Below, piece by piece: positions 5,158 through 13,629 of a DNA stretch of 64,000 bases. Where the stretch lies: contig CAKRPS010000003.1 in NCBI GenBank assembly GCA_934385475.1, positions 36,815 to 100,814 on the forward strand, written 5' to 3'. The notes beneath the pieces are model-generated. The model saw only the letters and a program-made list of their open reading frames with translations. It had not been told where the DNA came from and did not search any database. Made by a program: the position numbers and the translations under genes. The stretch comes from an uncultured Lachnospiraceae bacterium. Lineage in GTDB: Bacteria > Bacillota > Clostridia > Lachnospirales > Lachnospiraceae. Positions within the stretch are counted from its first letter, which is position 1. Each line of letters starts with the position of its first letter.

Positions 5158-5448
5158 TTAATCTTCGCCCCAATAATCAATGGTTTCCTGACTCGTAGTT
5201 ACTATACCAAACATTTGATACATGAAATCCTCTTTCTCATTAAATATTTCAAGTATCATAACCATATCATCCATAATGCGGTAAATAAAATAATTATGCT
5301 CAATAAAAAGCACGTAATAATCACAATCCAAATCATACTGTTTCCTCATGGACTCTCCCATTTCCGGAAATCTTTTCAATTTAGTAATAACATCACTTAT
5401 ACGTTTTGATAACGCAACCGAAGAATATGTTATCTTCCTTAATTTCAT
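5158..5448 (-). CDS. RelE/ParE-superfamily toxin
   Basis: A 96-residue protein with the compact alpha-beta layout of the RelE/ParE superfamily: an N-terminal helical hairpin (ALSKRISDVITKLKRFPEMGESMR), then strands including YYVLFIEHNYFIYRIMDDMVMILEIFNEKEDFM. In the superfamily these act as ribosome-dependent mRNA interferases or gyrase poisons; the sequence alone does not say which. It overlaps the antitoxin by four bases (ATGA), a typical arrangement giving coupled translation. The gene is clearly AT-richer than the housekeeping genes around it, consistent with an accessory module. The call rests on fold-level similarity and gene pairing. Confidence 0.7.
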   Translation of the reverse strand: MKLRKITYSSVALSKRISDVITKLKRFPEMGESMRKQYDLDCDYYVLFIEHNYFIYRIMDDMVMILEIFNEKEDFMYQMFGIVTTSQETIDYWGED

Positions 5449-5672
5449 ATTTTAGCTAATTCTTCCTCTACTTCCTCTTCCGAAAAATAGCCATCTTCAA
5501 GTACGGACTTTTCTGCTGCATTCATTTTCTCCATAAAAGTTCTGAACGCGCTCTCCTTATTATTTTGCACATTAAGTGACAAAAGTTGTTCTACAAGATT
5601 TTCTACCTTTACATAAGATTCTTGAGGAAGCAAATCTATTTTTCTTGTTAATTCGGCTGTAATCATGTTCAT
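5445..5672 (-). CDS. Antitoxin-like small protein paired with the RelE-type toxin
   Basis: The likely product is 75 residues, starting MNMITAELTRKIDLLPQESY and ending in an acidic tail (FSEEEVEEELAKI), the size and charge expected for an antitoxin whose C-terminus wraps the toxin. The open frame runs 53 codons further upstream, but the ATG at 5672 has AGGAAGGTA directly before it and the extension has no ribosome site and a poor composition. I do not recognise a named DNA-binding fold in the N-terminus. The region around the start codon is tandemly duplicated (see the repeat at 5655-5730), leaving a second ribosome site and ATG upstream. Confidence 0.65.
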   Translation of the reverse strand: MNMITAELTRKIDLLPQESYVKVENLVEQLLSLNVQNNKESAFRTFMEKMNAAEKSVLEDGYFSEEEVEEELAKI

Positions 5673-5730
5673 TACCTTCCTGATATACATCTGGCTGTAA
5701 TCATGTTCATTACCTCCCTGATATACATCT
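5655..5730. repeat. Two 38-bp tandem repeats covering the antitoxin start
   Basis: Units 5655-5692 and 5693-5730 differ at one base. Each unit carries a ribosome site, the start ATGAACATG and the first codons of the antitoxin. Because 38 is not a multiple of three, the upstream copy starts a short frame, MNMITARCISGR, whose stop TAA overlaps the true ATG as TAATG. Confidence 0.9.
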
Positions 5731-5789
5731 GGCAAAAACATTTTCTTTAAACATATACCATACTTCATTTCAATTATTTCTTCACTTTT

Positions 5790-5818
5790 ATTATAACCGA
5801 AATACATTATTCTGAACA
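5790..5818 (-). promoter_or_regulatory. Probable promoter of the RelE-type operon
   Basis: A perfect TATAAT (minus strand, 5790-5795) lies 17 bp from a weak -35 TGTTCA (5813-5818), about 120 bp upstream of the antitoxin start. Confidence 0.45.
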
Positions 5819-5865
5819 TACATTTAATCAAAGAAATAATCTTCTGTAGTTTTTTAGTTGGATAC

Positions 5866-8272: not shown

Positions 8273-10360
8273 TCAGTCCGGCGTCAGCAGCCTGTTCTGA
8301 AACAGTACCTTCAGATTAAAAGCCTTCTCTGCTTCTGCCCCATCAAACAAAATCTTCACATACGTTCCATCTGTTTCCGTAATGACACCATGTCCATAAC
8401 TTTTGTGCGTAACTGCCGTCCCTTCTGCCAGCCCCGTTGCAAATATATGGAGTTCTTTCTCATCCGGTTTTCGGAAAAGCAGCTGATTGATGAAGGTAGA
8501 AGTCTCCTGTGTCCGAAACAGATACAGGTTATCCTTCGCCCTGGTAGCCCCTACATAGAACAGCCTCCGCTCCTCCTCATAGGCCGCCACCTCCTCGCTT
8601 TCCCTGTCTTTAACATTATGCGGTATCTGCTCCGGGAAAATACCATCCTGCACGTCTATCATATAGACGTTATCATATTCCAGTCCCTTGCTTCCATGGA
8701 TGGTAGATAAAACAAACGAACACTCCCTGTCGTTTTGTCTGTTCTGGATGATATTTTTAAGTTCCTCCATCCGGTTCAAAAATCCCTCTGCCGTATCCTC
8801 TCTTGCAGCAAGTGTCTTCAGGATAAATATTTTTCCGTGCTTTGCCCCGGTCCTCTCCATATAATCACCATAGCCCATGTACTGGACAATCCGGTTTATC
8901 GCCTTTTGCGGACTTTCTTTTCCTATCTGTGCCAAATGAGCCTCAAGTGCCTTGAGGCTTTTCCTCGTCCGCGGCTTCACATCCAGATACCCGGAAATAG
9001 CAGAAAACACTGAAATATTATATTCCCGGCTGAGCGCACATACCTGTAACGCCATCTGCTTGCTCAGATAGGTCGCTATCTTGTAATATATCTGTTCAAA
9101 TAAATCTGCATTTCGCATGTCCAGGGCAAAACGCATGATATTTTCAATGTCCATCACAACCCGATGGGTAAAAAAGGAAAGCTCCGCATTCCGGATACGG
9201 TAAGGCACTCCATTCCGCTCCAGCAAATCCACAAGCGGAATGGCACTTTCATTATCCCGGTACAGAACGGCTGTCTTTTTCTTTGCCCCGGCTTCTGCCC
9301 CATCCTTTGTTGCACAATCCTGCGCTACTTTTAATAGGTAGGAATACTGCGCACTCCTGCTCTTTAAGGAAATTTCCTTAATTTCCGCTGCCCTTTCTTT
9401 CGTCGCTTTCATGTGCTTTTCCCGGCGGAGCATATTCTTCTGGATAAAACCGTCCGCCGCAGAAACGATATTGGCATTCGACCGGAAATTTTCTTCCATC
9501 AACAGCACCCTTGCTCCCGGATGTCTCTGTTCAAAGTTCAGTAACGCCTCCGGATAAGCCGCCCGGAACCCGTAAATGCTCTGGTCTTCATCCCCCACCA
9601 TGAAAAGGTTCTCTGTTTTTGAGGCAAGCAGTGCAATAATTTCATGCTGGATTTTCGACGTATCCTGCGCCTCATCCACACAGATGTAAGGATATCGGTT
9701 CTGATAGTAGTCCAGCAGACCGGGAGATGACTTCAACAGCCGGTAAGCATAAACCATCTGATCATCATAGTCCATACAGCACCGGTCTTTCAATTCCCTG
9801 CAATAAGCCTTGTAAATAGCAAGCAAATGGCAGCCCGCCTCTTCTTCCAGCTCCCGTATCTCCTGCTCCGACAGCATGCTGTTCTTAATATAGGTAATCA
9901 GTGTTTTGATTCCCTTTAAATCACTTTCGGTCGGATATTCCTCTTCGTATTGCTGATACAGTGATGCCAGTATGCCGATAAGCACCTTTTCATCACTTTC
10001 CAGCTCGTACGGTGTCTTCCCAATCTGTGCTCCATAATACTGGATGACCCCCGCGCAGATACTGTTAATCGTCCGGAATTCCAGCCGTGATGCCAGCTCC
10101 GGTCCAAAAAATTCACAAAACCGCTCCCGCATATCATTCGTTGCCGCAACCGTGTAGGTAAGCGTCAGAATATTGGCAGGCTGAACCCCCTGACAATAAA
10201 TCATATAGCCAAGCCTTGTGACCAGAACCGTTGTCTTTCCACTTCCGGGTACAGCAAGGAGCAGTACCGGTCCGTCAACTGCCTGTACTGCTTCCCTTTG
10301 CTGCTGATTTAATTTAATTGGAAATTTTGTGATGAATGTTTCAAAATCCCGCCTGTCCAT
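8273..10360 (-). CDS. UvrD/PcrA-like superfamily 1 DNA helicase
   Basis: ATP-dependent 3'-5' DNA helicase of 695 residues. Motifs in order: Q-motif region LNQQQREAV, Walker A AVPGSGKT (36-43), motif Ia LTLTYTVAA, Walker B VDEAQD, motif III GDEDQSIYGFRAA, motif IV MEENFRSN, motif V STIHGSKGLEYD and motif VI ERRLFYVGATRAK. The last 45 residues (SYGHGVITETDGTYVKILF) look like the small Tudor-like domain of PcrA/UvrD that contacts RNA polymerase. It lacks an obvious nuclease domain. The gene stands alone and is followed by a type III toxin-antitoxin locus upstream; it could be a second UvrD paralogue rather than the housekeeping PcrA, which would have to be found elsewhere in the genome. Confidence 0.92.
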   Translation of the reverse strand: MDRRDFETFITKFPIKLNQQQREAVQAVDGPVLLLAVPGSGKTTVLVTRLGYMIYCQGVQPANILTLTYTVAATNDMRERFCEFFGPELASRLEFRTINSICAGVIQYYGAQIGKTPYELESDEKVLIGILASLYQQYEEEYPTESDLKGIKTLITYIKNSMLSEQEIRELEEEAGCHLLAIYKAYCRELKDRCCMDYDDQMVYAYRLLKSSPGLLDYYQNRYPYICVDEAQDTSKIQHEIIALLASKTENLFMVGDEDQSIYGFRAAYPEALLNFEQRHPGARVLLMEENFRSNANIVSAADGFIQKNMLRREKHMKATKERAAEIKEISLKSRSAQYSYLLKVAQDCATKDGAEAGAKKKTAVLYRDNESAIPLVDLLERNGVPYRIRNAELSFFTHRVVMDIENIMRFALDMRNADLFEQIYYKIATYLSKQMALQVCALSREYNISVFSAISGYLDVKPRTRKSLKALEAHLAQIGKESPQKAINRIVQYMGYGDYMERTGAKHGKIFILKTLAAREDTAEGFLNRMEELKNIIQNRQNDRECSFVLSTIHGSKGLEYDNVYMIDVQDGIFPEQIPHNVKDRESEEVAAYEEERRLFYVGATRAKDNLYLFRTQETSTFINQLLFRKPDEKELHIFATGLAEGTAVTHKSYGHGVITETDGTYVKILFDGAEAEKAFNLKVLFQNRLLTPD

Positions 10361-10496: not shown

Positions 10497-10976
10497 TTAT
10501 ATACCCAATTCTTCATGAAAATATTTTAATGGCGAAAAATTATATCTTCTTGCAAATTCTTTTGCATGCAGCTTCTTAGTATTTTTCATGTGAGTTACAT
10601 AATCTTCAACAAAATTCAGCGCTTCTCTCTTGATTCGCTCCAAATTTACCATAGTTTCGTTAAACTCATCTTTATCAATAACCGCATCCGTAGAATCTAT
10701 GTAATCGTTTTTTGTAACAATTACTATCTTACTATAATCCAACCCTGATTTATGCTCTGTCGATCTTTTTGTTGTTGTAAAGTGAAATGCATACTGATGT
10801 CTAATCTCTGTTCTATATGGAATACAGATAAAATAACCATAATGCGTCTGAAATAACAAGCAATTATATGCTCTCTGTTTTTTCTTTAAAATCTCTCTAT
10901 AGGGTGGATTAGGATACGCTTTATAAAAGTCATCCGTCAACTTTAAAATTTGATAATCATTCTCTGGTAAACTCAT
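10497..10976 (-). CDS. Type III toxin, ToxN/AbiQ superfamily (TenpN- or CptN-like)
   Basis: A 159-residue basic protein. The layout is that of type III toxin endoribonucleases: an N-terminal LTDDFYKAYPNPPYREILKKKQRAY (two adjoining parts), a strand pair FQTHYGYFICIPYRTEIRHQYAF containing the conserved I-P-x-R-x-x-I-x-H pattern, SGLDYSKIVIVTKNDYI, and a C-terminal helical part with FVEDYVTHMKN. In characterised systems the toxin cuts mRNA and its own repeat RNA and is held inactive by that RNA. The context fits: a promoter, two 52-bp repeats and an intrinsic terminator lie just upstream in the same direction. GGGAG lies before the ATG. The subfamily cannot be fixed by eye. Confidence 0.82.
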   Translation of the reverse strand: MSLPENDYQILKLTDDFYKAYPNPPYREILKKKQRAYNCLLFQTHYGYFICIPYRTEIRHQYAFHFTTTKRSTEHKSGLDYSKIVIVTKNDYIDSTDAVIDKDEFNETMVNLERIKREALNFVEDYVTHMKNTKKLHAKEFARRYNFSPLKYFHEELGI

Positions 10977-11012
10977 TCAATTTTCTCCCTGGAAATGCCT
11001 ACTCGATTGAGT

Positions 11013-11044
11013 AAAAAGAAACGAGAGACTTTTTCAGCCTCTCG
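11013..11044 (-). terminator. Terminator between antitoxin repeats and toxin
   Basis: Minus-strand CGAGAG (11039-11044) pairs with CTCTCG (11022-11027), followed by TTTCTTTTTA. In type III systems such a terminator is leaky and keeps RNA antitoxin in excess over toxin mRNA. Confidence 0.85.
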
Positions 11045-11058
11045 TAATCAGCTTCATC

Positions 11059-11162
11059 ACTCGGTCAGTTTTTATTTTACCGTCCTGTCAGAACCGTCAC
11101 AGGACTCATCACTCGGTCAGTTTTTATTTTACCGTCCTGTCGGAACCGTCACAGGACTCATC
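11059..11162 (-). repeat. Two tandem 52-bp antitoxin repeats
   Basis: Units 11059-11110 and 11111-11162 are identical except for one base in the predicted loop (plus-strand A at 11090, G at 11142). A truncated third unit (GATGA on the minus strand) follows on the toxin side. Confidence 0.95.
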
Positions 11163-11199
11163 ATAAATGATGAAGAAGAACAACTCTGTTCTTAACTAT

Positions 11200-11229
11200 A
11201 TTATATGCACATATTTTGTAAAATAGCAA
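11200..11229 (-). promoter_or_regulatory. Promoter of the type III toxin-antitoxin locus
   Basis: Minus-strand TTGCTA (11224-11229), 18-bp spacer and perfect TATAAT (11200-11205). Confidence 0.7.
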
Positions 11230-11253: not shown

Positions 11254-13629
11254 TCATCCTTCCGCTTCCATCAGGTATATCCTGGCATCGAAATCCTGAA
11301 AAAGTGCAGTTCCGGTTTCAAATCCGGTGCCTCCGAAGTTCGGAGAAAGCACAACTCCTGCCTTATTGAGCAGATCACCCGGCACATGAAACTCTTCCGT
11401 CTCACCTTCCAAAGTTATCAGATGGGTTACGACCTGATGAATCACTGAATTCGGCCGGATATGCACAGGCGAAGCGGTATTGATGAGATCTCCCATCCTG
11501 GCAATATCCACCTTCTGCGGAATATGATAAAAGTGATACTGTTTCGTATCATCAAGTCCCTTAGACCTGAAATAGCGGTGTGTGTCATTTGCATGAACCA
11601 GTCCGTTCAGCAGAATCCCAACTGCCTTTTCCTGATCCTCCGACACCAGATTCCAGCGAATGACATCTGTGTCACGTGCTCCTTCCCCGGAAAGCCCATG
11701 CAGGCGATAGAACTCACCGAACTGCAACACCTTGCGCCACTTTTTGTAGAAAGCAACCTCCTCCCGGATTTTCACAAGCTCCTCTCCCGGTAAGTCGCAA
11801 AGATTCCATTCATATCCGAGGATTCCTCCACATGCAACCGCAAAGCGGCTGTGTAGCGGCGTTACCCGCAAGGTCTGATGATTCGGACAGGAAGATACAT
11901 GTGCGCCCATGACAGATTGAGGATACCCATAGCTGCAGCCGTTCTGGATTTTTGCCCTTGCAACAGCGTCTGTGCAGTCGCTCACCCAGAGCTGTGGCAT
12001 ATAGCATAGCATTCCCAGGTCAAACCGGTTGCCTCCGGATGCGCAGCCTTCAAACAAAACATCCGGGAAGCGGCTCGTCAGTTCTCCCAATACTCGGTAC
12101 AATCCCAACAGATAACGGTGTGCAAATTCTCCCTGTTTCTCCTTCGGGAGTACCGGACTGTAATAATCCGACAGGTGACGGTTCATATCCCATTTCACAT
12201 AATCCACCTGTCCCCTTGTGAAAACATCGCTCATATCCGCAAGAATCCGGTTCTGCACTTCTGGCTGTGTCAGATCCAGAAGCAGCTGGTTCCGTCCTTC
12301 TGCATGCGCCTTTCCGGGAATCTGTACCGCATACTCCGGGTGCTCCCTGTAGAGCTTCGAGTCCTCACTGATCATTTCCGGCTCTACCCAGATCCCGAAT
12401 TTCATCCCCATTGCATGAATCTTTGCAGACAACCCACCAAGCCCGTCAGGGAGCTTCTCCAAATTATCCTGCCAGTCCCCTAAGGCTTTCTGGTCATTCC
12501 CACGTTCGCCAAACCATCCGTCATCCAAAACAAAAAGCTCGATTCCAACTGCTGCTGCCTGCTTTGCAAGTTTCAGGAGTTTCCGCTCTTTCACATCAAA
12601 ATACATGGCTTCCCATGAATTGATCAGGATTGGCCTCTCCTTTTTCTTCCACGTTCCACGCACAATGTGCTCTCTTACAAAACGGTGCATATTCCGGCTG
12701 ATCCCGCCATAGCCTTCCTTGGAAAAAGTAAGCACAGCCTCCGGCGAGGAAAAGCTTTCTCCCTCCTCCAGTACCTTCTCCAGAAAATCAGGATGGATTC
12801 CCTGAAGAACCCGTACCCTGCCATGCGCATTACACTCAATGCTTTCCCGGTGATTTCCGGAATAGATCAGGTTAAATCCGTAGCACGTCCCATAGTCCTC
12901 CTTTGCGTCTGCTTCCCCACAGATGAAAAAAGGATTGGCCTTATTAGAAGAAAATCCGGTTGTGGATTCAATCTGAAAGCTGCCGGACTGCAGTATGGTT
13001 TCGCAGGGCTGCATCTCCCGTGCCCACTCTCCATGAAAGCTTACTATCTTCTGTCTGCCCCGCGAGTGCAGATCAAGCTGGGTGCTCATCAGCCGCTGTA
13101 AAGTCACCGGCTCGCTTCCTTCATTTTTCACAACCGCAAACCTTGTGATGCAGTCACAGTCTTCCAGCACACTGTAGATCAGCGTTAACCGGGCCTCACT
13201 GTTCCGGTCTTCCATATTAAGAACCAATGACCGGGCTTTTCCGGTTTCATCATAGGCACCCGGAAGCCCTTCCGGTACCTGTTTTTCCATAATTTCAAAG
13301 TCCTTAAACCGGAAATCACTTGTCCGGCTTCCATCCGCATAAAAGAGCTCCACAAATGGCTGCGCCATATCCCCTTTTCCGCGCCCGGATACCTCCAGAC
13401 ACACATCATCCAGCGATACTGCCGGACACGTCTTATCCTGAATGATACTGCATCCATTGGGATTGAAAACCCGCATTTTCAATGCTTCCAGTGCATTTTG
13501 CCAGGAAACACCCATGTTTATTTTTTCTCCATAATAGAGATGCTGCAGATTTCCTGCCTGGTCCACACAGAACGCATACGTAGTATGTTCCGTTTCCAAC
13601 AAAAACTTTCCATTTTCTGCATAAATCAT
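11254..13629 (-). CDS. GH36 alpha-galactosidase
   Basis: Retaining alpha-galactosidase releasing terminal alpha-galactose from raffinose- and melibiose-type sugars. The 791-residue protein has the N-terminal beta-supersandwich, then the catalytic barrel with FVLDDGWFGERGND, KFGIWVEPEMISEDS, the nucleophile in YVKWDMNRH (Asp481) and the acid/base in WVSDCTD (Asp551), plus FEGCASGGNRFD. No signal peptide, so it works on imported sugars in the cytoplasm, matching the symporter gene upstream. Last gene of the TetR-GH2-symporter-GH36 unit, 32 bp after the symporter. Specificity within GH36 is inferred. Confidence 0.95.
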   Translation of the reverse strand: MIYAENGKFLLETEHTTYAFCVDQAGNLQHLYYGEKINMGVSWQNALEALKMRVFNPNGCSIIQDKTCPAVSLDDVCLEVSGRGKGDMAQPFVELFYADGSRTSDFRFKDFEIMEKQVPEGLPGAYDETGKARSLVLNMEDRNSEARLTLIYSVLEDCDCITRFAVVKNEGSEPVTLQRLMSTQLDLHSRGRQKIVSFHGEWAREMQPCETILQSGSFQIESTTGFSSNKANPFFICGEADAKEDYGTCYGFNLIYSGNHRESIECNAHGRVRVLQGIHPDFLEKVLEEGESFSSPEAVLTFSKEGYGGISRNMHRFVREHIVRGTWKKKERPILINSWEAMYFDVKERKLLKLAKQAAAVGIELFVLDDGWFGERGNDQKALGDWQDNLEKLPDGLGGLSAKIHAMGMKFGIWVEPEMISEDSKLYREHPEYAVQIPGKAHAEGRNQLLLDLTQPEVQNRILADMSDVFTRGQVDYVKWDMNRHLSDYYSPVLPKEKQGEFAHRYLLGLYRVLGELTSRFPDVLFEGCASGGNRFDLGMLCYMPQLWVSDCTDAVARAKIQNGCSYGYPQSVMGAHVSSCPNHQTLRVTPLHSRFAVACGGILGYEWNLCDLPGEELVKIREEVAFYKKWRKVLQFGEFYRLHGLSGEGARDTDVIRWNLVSEDQEKAVGILLNGLVHANDTHRYFRSKGLDDTKQYHFYHIPQKVDIARMGDLINTASPVHIRPNSVIHQVVTHLITLEGETEEFHVPGDLLNKAGVVLSPNFGGTGFETGTALFQDFDARIYLMEAEG

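Follow-up and report, generated by a model that had tools for sequence, protein, structure and literature searches.

The 64,000-nucleotide stretch analysed here (the window; contig CAKRPS010000003.1 of an uncultured Lachnospiraceae bacterium) holds, on its minus strand from 11229 down to 10497, what is very probably a chromosomal TenpIN module, a toxin-antitoxin system of type III, working by the mechanism proposed below. Complete units of its antitoxin, TenpI, also recur in virus records in which no toxin was found, and on balance we favor the view that phages, probably of Firmicutes, carry them as stand-alone RNA decoys that hold the TenpN toxin of this clade. Other loci and records are cited by our own handles (L003 and so on).

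The window locus as a TenpIN module

The type III reading is supported by a family model, a predicted fold, the order of the locus and a conserved RNA structure. The initial annotation had left the family open between TenpIN, CptIN and a new one; it can now be given as TenpIN. In a hidden Markov model search, the toxin scored 169.9 bits against the NCBIfam TenpIN model, which has a cut-off of 90, with residues 13-157 lying on positions 1-141 of the 141-position profile. The CptIN and ToxIN family models were unmatched, in NCBIfam up to E 10 and in Pfam. The suggested relation to ToxN and AbiQ is upheld by the predicted model of the toxin, which fits ToxN, AbiQ and CptN structures best. Toxin family and size are shared with the TenpIN systems of Photorhabdus luminescens and Clostridium hiranonis, and known TenpIN loci likewise share repeat length, repeat number and a gene order with the terminator between antitoxin and toxin; the hosts differ. 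With ToxIN and AbiQ (PDB 2xd0, 4ato, 4glk, 7d8o), the locus has in common the toxin fold and the locus order, and the antitoxin in the ToxIN structures is pseudoknotted, as is proposed for the present one, but the sequence family is another and the repeats measure 34-36 nt in 2.8-5.5 copies in the three examples excerpted (PMC5086642). The CptIN system of Eubacterium rectale (PDB 4rmo) has a toxin of another sequence family and a 45-nt unit of different sequence.

The proposed order of promoter, two repeats, terminator and toxin was confirmed, with all parts on the minus strand (Table 1). The window has three tandem arrays, of which the two 52-nt direct repeats (11054-11105 and 11106-11157, one mismatch) form one. 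The core pattern taken from them, TGACGGTTNNGACNNNNCGNTAA, has two occurrences in the 64 kb and none in 100 shuffles, and in folding the antitoxin region surpasses each of 200 shuffles (z -4.6). Within the array the proposed pseudoknot unit can be refined to 44 nt, with an 8-nt linker from one unit to the next. To the parts first listed can be added a 5' hairpin and a closing stem between leader and tail. Scanning the region gave 2 terminator-like stems against 0.4 expected, and 6 promoter-like sites against 4.5 expected; the promoter hexamers alone are weak, not above chance, and a TATAAT-like box, read by eye, is similarly placed in many relatives. Rfam returned no gathering-level match in the window; relaxing the threshold to E 10 within 1 kb gave only chance-like ones.

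The notion that two 52-nt copies are unusually compact did not survive comparison: in size and repeat number the locus is an ordinary TenpIN. Published tenpIN loci combine 158 residues with 55 nt in 2.1 copies, as in C. hiranonis, and 144 residues with 53 nt in 2.1 copies (PMC6315513), while E. rectale CptIN carries a pair of 45-nt repeats, and one CptI repeat by itself is reported as fully antitoxic there (PMC4627078). The relatives gathered here possess one to three units per locus, mostly two: two at 51-53 nt spacing in the close relatives L003, L006-L012, L014, L016, L032 and L051-L053, and three in L109. A single unit stands ahead of an open toxin frame in L005 and L054, where leader and tail are able to close it by a stem, and ahead of broken or partial toxins in L013, L021, L022 and L028.

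Relatives point to a putative H-type pseudoknot for the antitoxin unit. We gathered 36 distinct units of the window's class (class A) from the window and from bacterial and virus loci, using an expression that fixes the loop CGGTT and [GA]ACC[GA], which are both strands of the second helix (S2), but only one base of the first (S1); the patterns that supplied part of the loci fix a few further S1 letters. The seven pairs of S1 are complete in 34 of the 36 units. Of the 14 S1 helices that differ in sequence, 12 pair fully with their own partner strand, as against 10 of 176 after partner swapping, and six loci (L007, L008, L011, L016, L032 and L052) each hold two units with different, self-complementary S1 stems, which is not expected from plain duplication. 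The clear failure is L088, in which the first half of one unit is fused to the second half of another and beside which no toxin was found; in L109, one of the three units has 6 of 7 S1 pairs. Compensation within and between loci strongly supports the S1 helix. As for S2, the H-type topology would arise by pairing of CGGTT with [GA]ACCG on the far side of the A-rich loop. Since both strands were fixed by the collection, swap counts are no test of S2. What speaks for its pairing is the defective state of the competing local hairpin, CGGT/ACCG, which 9 of the 36 units lack in complete form, and the evidence of class B, a sister TenpI class: there, a scan requiring pairing found units with paired S1 and S2 and several S2 sequences in 17 of the 19 bacterial loci tried (none in L017 and L058).

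Outside the units, the 5' hairpin is common rather than universal: 17 of 31 loci have it at z below -1.5. The closing stem of leader and tail has a mean energy of -8.12 kcal/mol in its own combination (31 loci) and of -5.60 when swapped (854 swaps), this form of the test covering 31 of the 32 rows outside tRNA arrays (L051, too short upstream, was dropped). In L106 and L124 the sequence 3' of the unit can also form a hairpin of its own, and the closing stem is therefore doubtful there. Among the open-licence papers on TenpIN, we met no covariation-supported fold of this unit class.

A number of results weigh against this reading of toxin and RNA. Pfam gave the toxin no match and a PDB sequence search no credible related chain; Foldseek taken alone ranked MazF-type matches first, with none at E ≤ 0.001, and the sole PADLOC match was a weak one, to a type II restriction-enzyme model. 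S2 is nearly invariant in the window's class, both its strands being fixed by the collecting expression, and the class-B scan, which demands pairing and picks up chance structures as well, is descriptive. For the closing stem, none of 5000 permutations was as low in energy, a figure from which kinship among the loci is not removed, and an unanchored form of the test discriminated poorly: own combinations formed stems of at least 6 pairs in 26 of 32 cases and swapped combinations in 497 of 944, and for the six tRNA-array rows the corresponding figures were 6 of 6 and 25 of 30.

Mechanistically, we infer that one promoter would yield an RNA made up of the 5' hairpin, leader, two pseudoknot units and terminator, and that occasional read-through of the terminator would supply the toxin mRNA. 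TenpN, as a predicted endoribonuclease of ToxN fold, would cleave the precursor between one unit and the next and would itself be kept inactive within a ring of protein and RNA. Certain phages, on infecting the cell, would then upset the balance and free the toxin, resulting in abortive infection, as described for the TenpIN of P. luminescens (PMC5377504).

Table 1. Parts of the TenpIN locus, in order of the predicted transcript
Feature	Position in window	Strand	Remarks
Sigma-70-type promoter-like site, TTGCTA-18-TATAAT	11200..11229	-	Hexamers match 10/12; spacer 18
5' hairpin of antitoxin transcript	11176..11193	-	7 pairs, 4-nt loop; window z printed as -1.5
Leader strand of closing stem, CTTCATCATT	11166..11175	-	Can pair with tail of last unit
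Antitoxin unit 1	11114..11157	-	S1 11157-11151/11140-11134; S2 11148-11144/11118-11114; A-rich loop 11133-11119
Antitoxin unit 2	11062..11105	-	Anatomy as unit 1; one base differs (loop CTG for CCG)
Tail strand of closing stem, AGTGATGAAG	11052..11061	-	Can pair with leader strand
Intrinsic terminator between antitoxin and toxin	11014..11045	-	10-pair stem and T tail at 11045-11021
Ribosome-binding-like site of toxin frame, AGGGAG	10990-10985	-	By eye
TenpN toxin, 159 residues	10497..10976	-	ATG start; predicted endoribonuclease, ToxN/AbiQ fold

Toxin-free antitoxin units in phage records

The core pattern matched 32 stretches in IMG/VR, and reading the surroundings of each left 25 with a unit (one, L107, cut short); the matches in L097, L104, L105, L108, L111, L114 and L128 look like chance. 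A fuller viral pattern found 25 stretches against 5 for its reversed control (three of the 5 sharing one sequence), and patterns for class B and class C found 7 and 1. When 37 virus records were searched whole, four (L109, L120, L130 and L137) proved to carry TenpN in complete loci, reached through the RNA patterns after protein scans had missed the toxin. No TenpN was found in 30 records with a complete unit (24 of class A, 6 of class B), which may be fragments; left out of these are L107, L139 (class C, toxin start present where the record ends) and L140 (weak). The 30 toxin-free records fall into 12 groups at 70% nucleotide identity over 800 bases and into 15 at 90%, although 11 may be fairer than 12, the unit regions of L132 and L138 being near-identical with too little aligned DNA to join them. 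Two records, L126 and L127, have an array followed by a terminator-like hairpin.

Nineteen of the 30 units lie in or beside tRNA genes, each on the tRNA strand (L098-L103, L106, L110, L112, L113, L115-L118 and L121-L125). In 16 the unit precedes tRNA-Lys(ttt), with tRNA-Phe(gaa) on the other side in the 15 whose stretch reaches far enough; two units lie between tRNA-Gly(ccc) and tRNA-Leu(tag), and one just after tRNA-Gly(ccc). A tmRNA gene is also present in L098, L100 and L112.

PHROG scans of 27 proteins from 11 toxin-free loci, with two further proteins from L140, identified terminase, portal or tape-measure genes on 7 of the 11: terminase in L098, L099, L127 and, weakly, L134; portal in L099, L119 and L127; tape measure in L126 and L133. 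Other matches were to a tail fibre (L132), to a head-decoration-like protein and a reverse transcriptase family (L115), to nucleotidyltransferases (L129) and, in L131, to a DNA invertase only. For the remaining records, IMG/VR and kinship are the grounds for calling them viral. Among named phages, the terminases closest to that of L099, all below 60% identity, belong to large phages such as SPbeta/phi3T of Bacillus and phages of Lysinibacillus, Thomasclavelia, Clostridioides and Enterocloster.

Maintenance of the units by selection in the phages is supported by their place and by compensation between homologous phages. Across an alignment of five homologous regions out of the 16 in the tRNA-Phe/tRNA-Lys group, 98.9% of cells are paired over S1, S2 and the closing stem, as against 28-44% when partners are slid, and one S2 cell (L110) is broken. 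Three pairs have changed on both sides (two in the closing stem, one in S1), a number reached by 4 of 500 shuffles; because all three separate L098 from the other regions, they represent few events. Between L098 and L099, 46 of 50 columns agree in the unit and 27 of 54 outside it. In this group one strand of the closing stem replaces the host GATGA junction after the unit. The bacterial loci L005 and L054, which have one unit each, can adopt this topology of a stem-closed single unit as well.

It is tempting to speculate how such decoys would work. We infer that the phage units neutralize TenpN. Many sit in tRNA arrays and could be freed from these, in the absence of the toxin, by tRNA processing; the new closing stem of the largest group, standing in place of the host repeat junction, might make them poor substrates and good inhibitors. 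L129 and L131 appear as if they collect antitoxins against several toxins. In L129 (~138-260), a class-A unit is followed by a second pseudoknot-like sequence, GCCGTG..CACGGC, and in L131 (minus strand, ~3511-3400) by GTCGTG..CACGAC with GTAGCT/AGCTAC, both read by eye; multi-decoy arrays are a possible interpretation of the pair. Were phages to carry antitoxin decoys, an antiphage role of TenpN would be implied.

Phage RNAs of comparable kind have been described. Phage PhiTE also bears a type III antitoxin-like RNA, a pseudo-ToxI of 1.5 repeats; the wild type is described as having no full unit, and escape as needing expansion or recombination (PMC3475682). Unlike this pseudo-ToxI, the phage units reported here are complete, are TenpI, form 11-12 sequence groups and often lie inside tRNA arrays. 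Solitary CRISPR repeats carried by phages as RNA anti-CRISPRs (Racr) are likewise single phage copies of a host defence RNA repeat, but their reported targets are Cas proteins and not a type III toxin (PMC10651486). Phage tRNAs have been reported to evade retrons (PMC11555353), and in T4-like phages large deletions that include tRNA genes led to ToxIN escape, an effect of opposite sign (PMC5449768). Searches of open-licence papers found nothing closer on phage-borne type III antitoxins.

Among named phages, a DNA search with the window's array gave no match, and a phage unit gave one weak match, in MT835481.1, besides matches in 106 Mycobacterium phages. The 29 Mycobacterium phage matches listed cover the first 22 query bases only; the unit of MT835481.1, with S1 degenerate by eye, looks decayed and was not counted. 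Phages with related terminases (Enterocloster PMBT24 and CB457P1; MT835469.1) had no such unit in the stretches fetched; PMBT24 and CB457P1 gave one chance-like match each, and shuffles occasionally matched too. The TenpN toxin was not found in named phage records, nor by protein scan of viral contigs.

Genomic setting and competing explanations

The module is flanked by a helicase gene (8273-10360) and an alpha-galactosidase gene (11254-13629), both named by eye. Among 65 fetched loci with a tblastn toxin match (some fetched twice, with flanks of about 1.5 kb), none had a match to either neighbor; in L006, whose toxin is 84% identical, the module lies between an apparent ABC permease and a PadR regulator (by eye). 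No integrase or other mobility gene was noticed beside the locus in the list of open reading frames, read by eye without a dedicated search. From such comparisons, the module appears to move between places without visible machinery. Elsewhere in the window, adjacent frames of 96 and 128 residues (5158-5831, minus strand) resemble by eye a RelE-type toxin and antitoxin, the second frame containing a 38-bp tandem duplication (5655-5733).

TenpIN scored above cut-off in 15 of 397 genomes of a family sample, 16 of 392 of an order sample and 12 of 391 of a class sample (the samples overlap); in the genus of the nearest genome, 1 of 9 genomes gave a match. The core pattern was present in 22 of 382 genomes: 11 with an intact toxin adjacent, 3 with a remnant, 7 with none detected by tblastn at 1e-3 (by eye L079 shows a scrap; L084 has a masked run) and 1 a chance match in coding sequence. 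Thus, antitoxin units without an intact toxin are common in bacterial genomes; an antitoxin-based search is blind to the reverse loss, of antitoxin from toxin. In L073, L075, L078, L079, L081, L082, L084, L085 and L088, where the toxin is missing or a remnant, terminators are often still visible.

Six further toxins (L023, L024, L026, L027, L047 and L064) score 41-50 bits, below the TenpIN cut-off, and follow long RNA-like leaders that are mostly alike, with a 5' hairpin by eye. A repeat scan of the leaders of L023, L024, L026 and L027 found no repeats; judged by eye, the L064 leader has a duplicated stretch. These are possibly type III-like modules with a non-repeated antitoxin.

How far do other explanations account for these observations? 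It is most improbable that the locus represents ToxIN, CptIN or a new type III family: its 52-nt repeat does fall outside the 34-36 nt of the excerpted ToxI examples, but NCBIfam up to E 10 offers the TenpIN equivalog and nothing else, at 80 bits above cut-off, and the repeat length agrees with that of published tenpIN loci. A more substantial alternative, though one we consider unlikely, is that the module is a stabilization or addiction element of a former mobile element, with any effect on phages secondary. Its occurrence in unrelated places, with no neighbors shared among the 65 loci, accords with this, as do toxin relatives on 39 plasmid records, mostly of Escherichia and Salmonella, of which 30 are predicted mobilizable (those listed, 20 in number, have ~32% identity, sit on plasmids of 4-10 kb and are annotated as hypothetical). 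Furthermore, the E. rectale CptIN, chromosomal in its host, is reported to have stabilized a plasmid when cloned (PMC5086642). Set against these points are the lack of a mobility gene noticed by eye beside the locus and the phage units themselves: a toxin acting on phage infection would lead one to expect stand-alone units in phages, and addiction alone does not predict them.

The phage units might instead be leftovers of complete TenpIN loci once carried by phages rather than selected decoys, which we regard as doubtful. Bacterial genomes do hold such leftovers, as the remnant and toxin-less loci and the broken S1 of the L088 chimera illustrate; four virus records retain complete loci, L126 and L127 keep array and terminator-like hairpin with no toxin found in the record, and the MT835481.1 unit has the look of decay. 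Leftovers should decay, however, whereas across the 16 tRNA-Phe/tRNA-Lys records the position of the unit is conserved, and L098 and L099 agree far better in the core than outside it, with three compensated pairs, all in L098. Nor is any host-type leader or terminator seen beside the unit in that group. We retain the decoy explanation as the favored one for the phage units and, for the window locus, a TenpIN module whose toxin would be freed on infection.

Taken by itself, the window locus adds one more TenpIN system. If phages keep complete decoys, type III toxins would be a standing threat to these phages, RNA anti-defence might be sought in phage tRNA arrays, and any given phage unit would hint at the class of toxin carried by its hosts. 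The antiphage role of TenpIN in Clostridia, in turn, becomes directly testable with short RNAs in E. coli.
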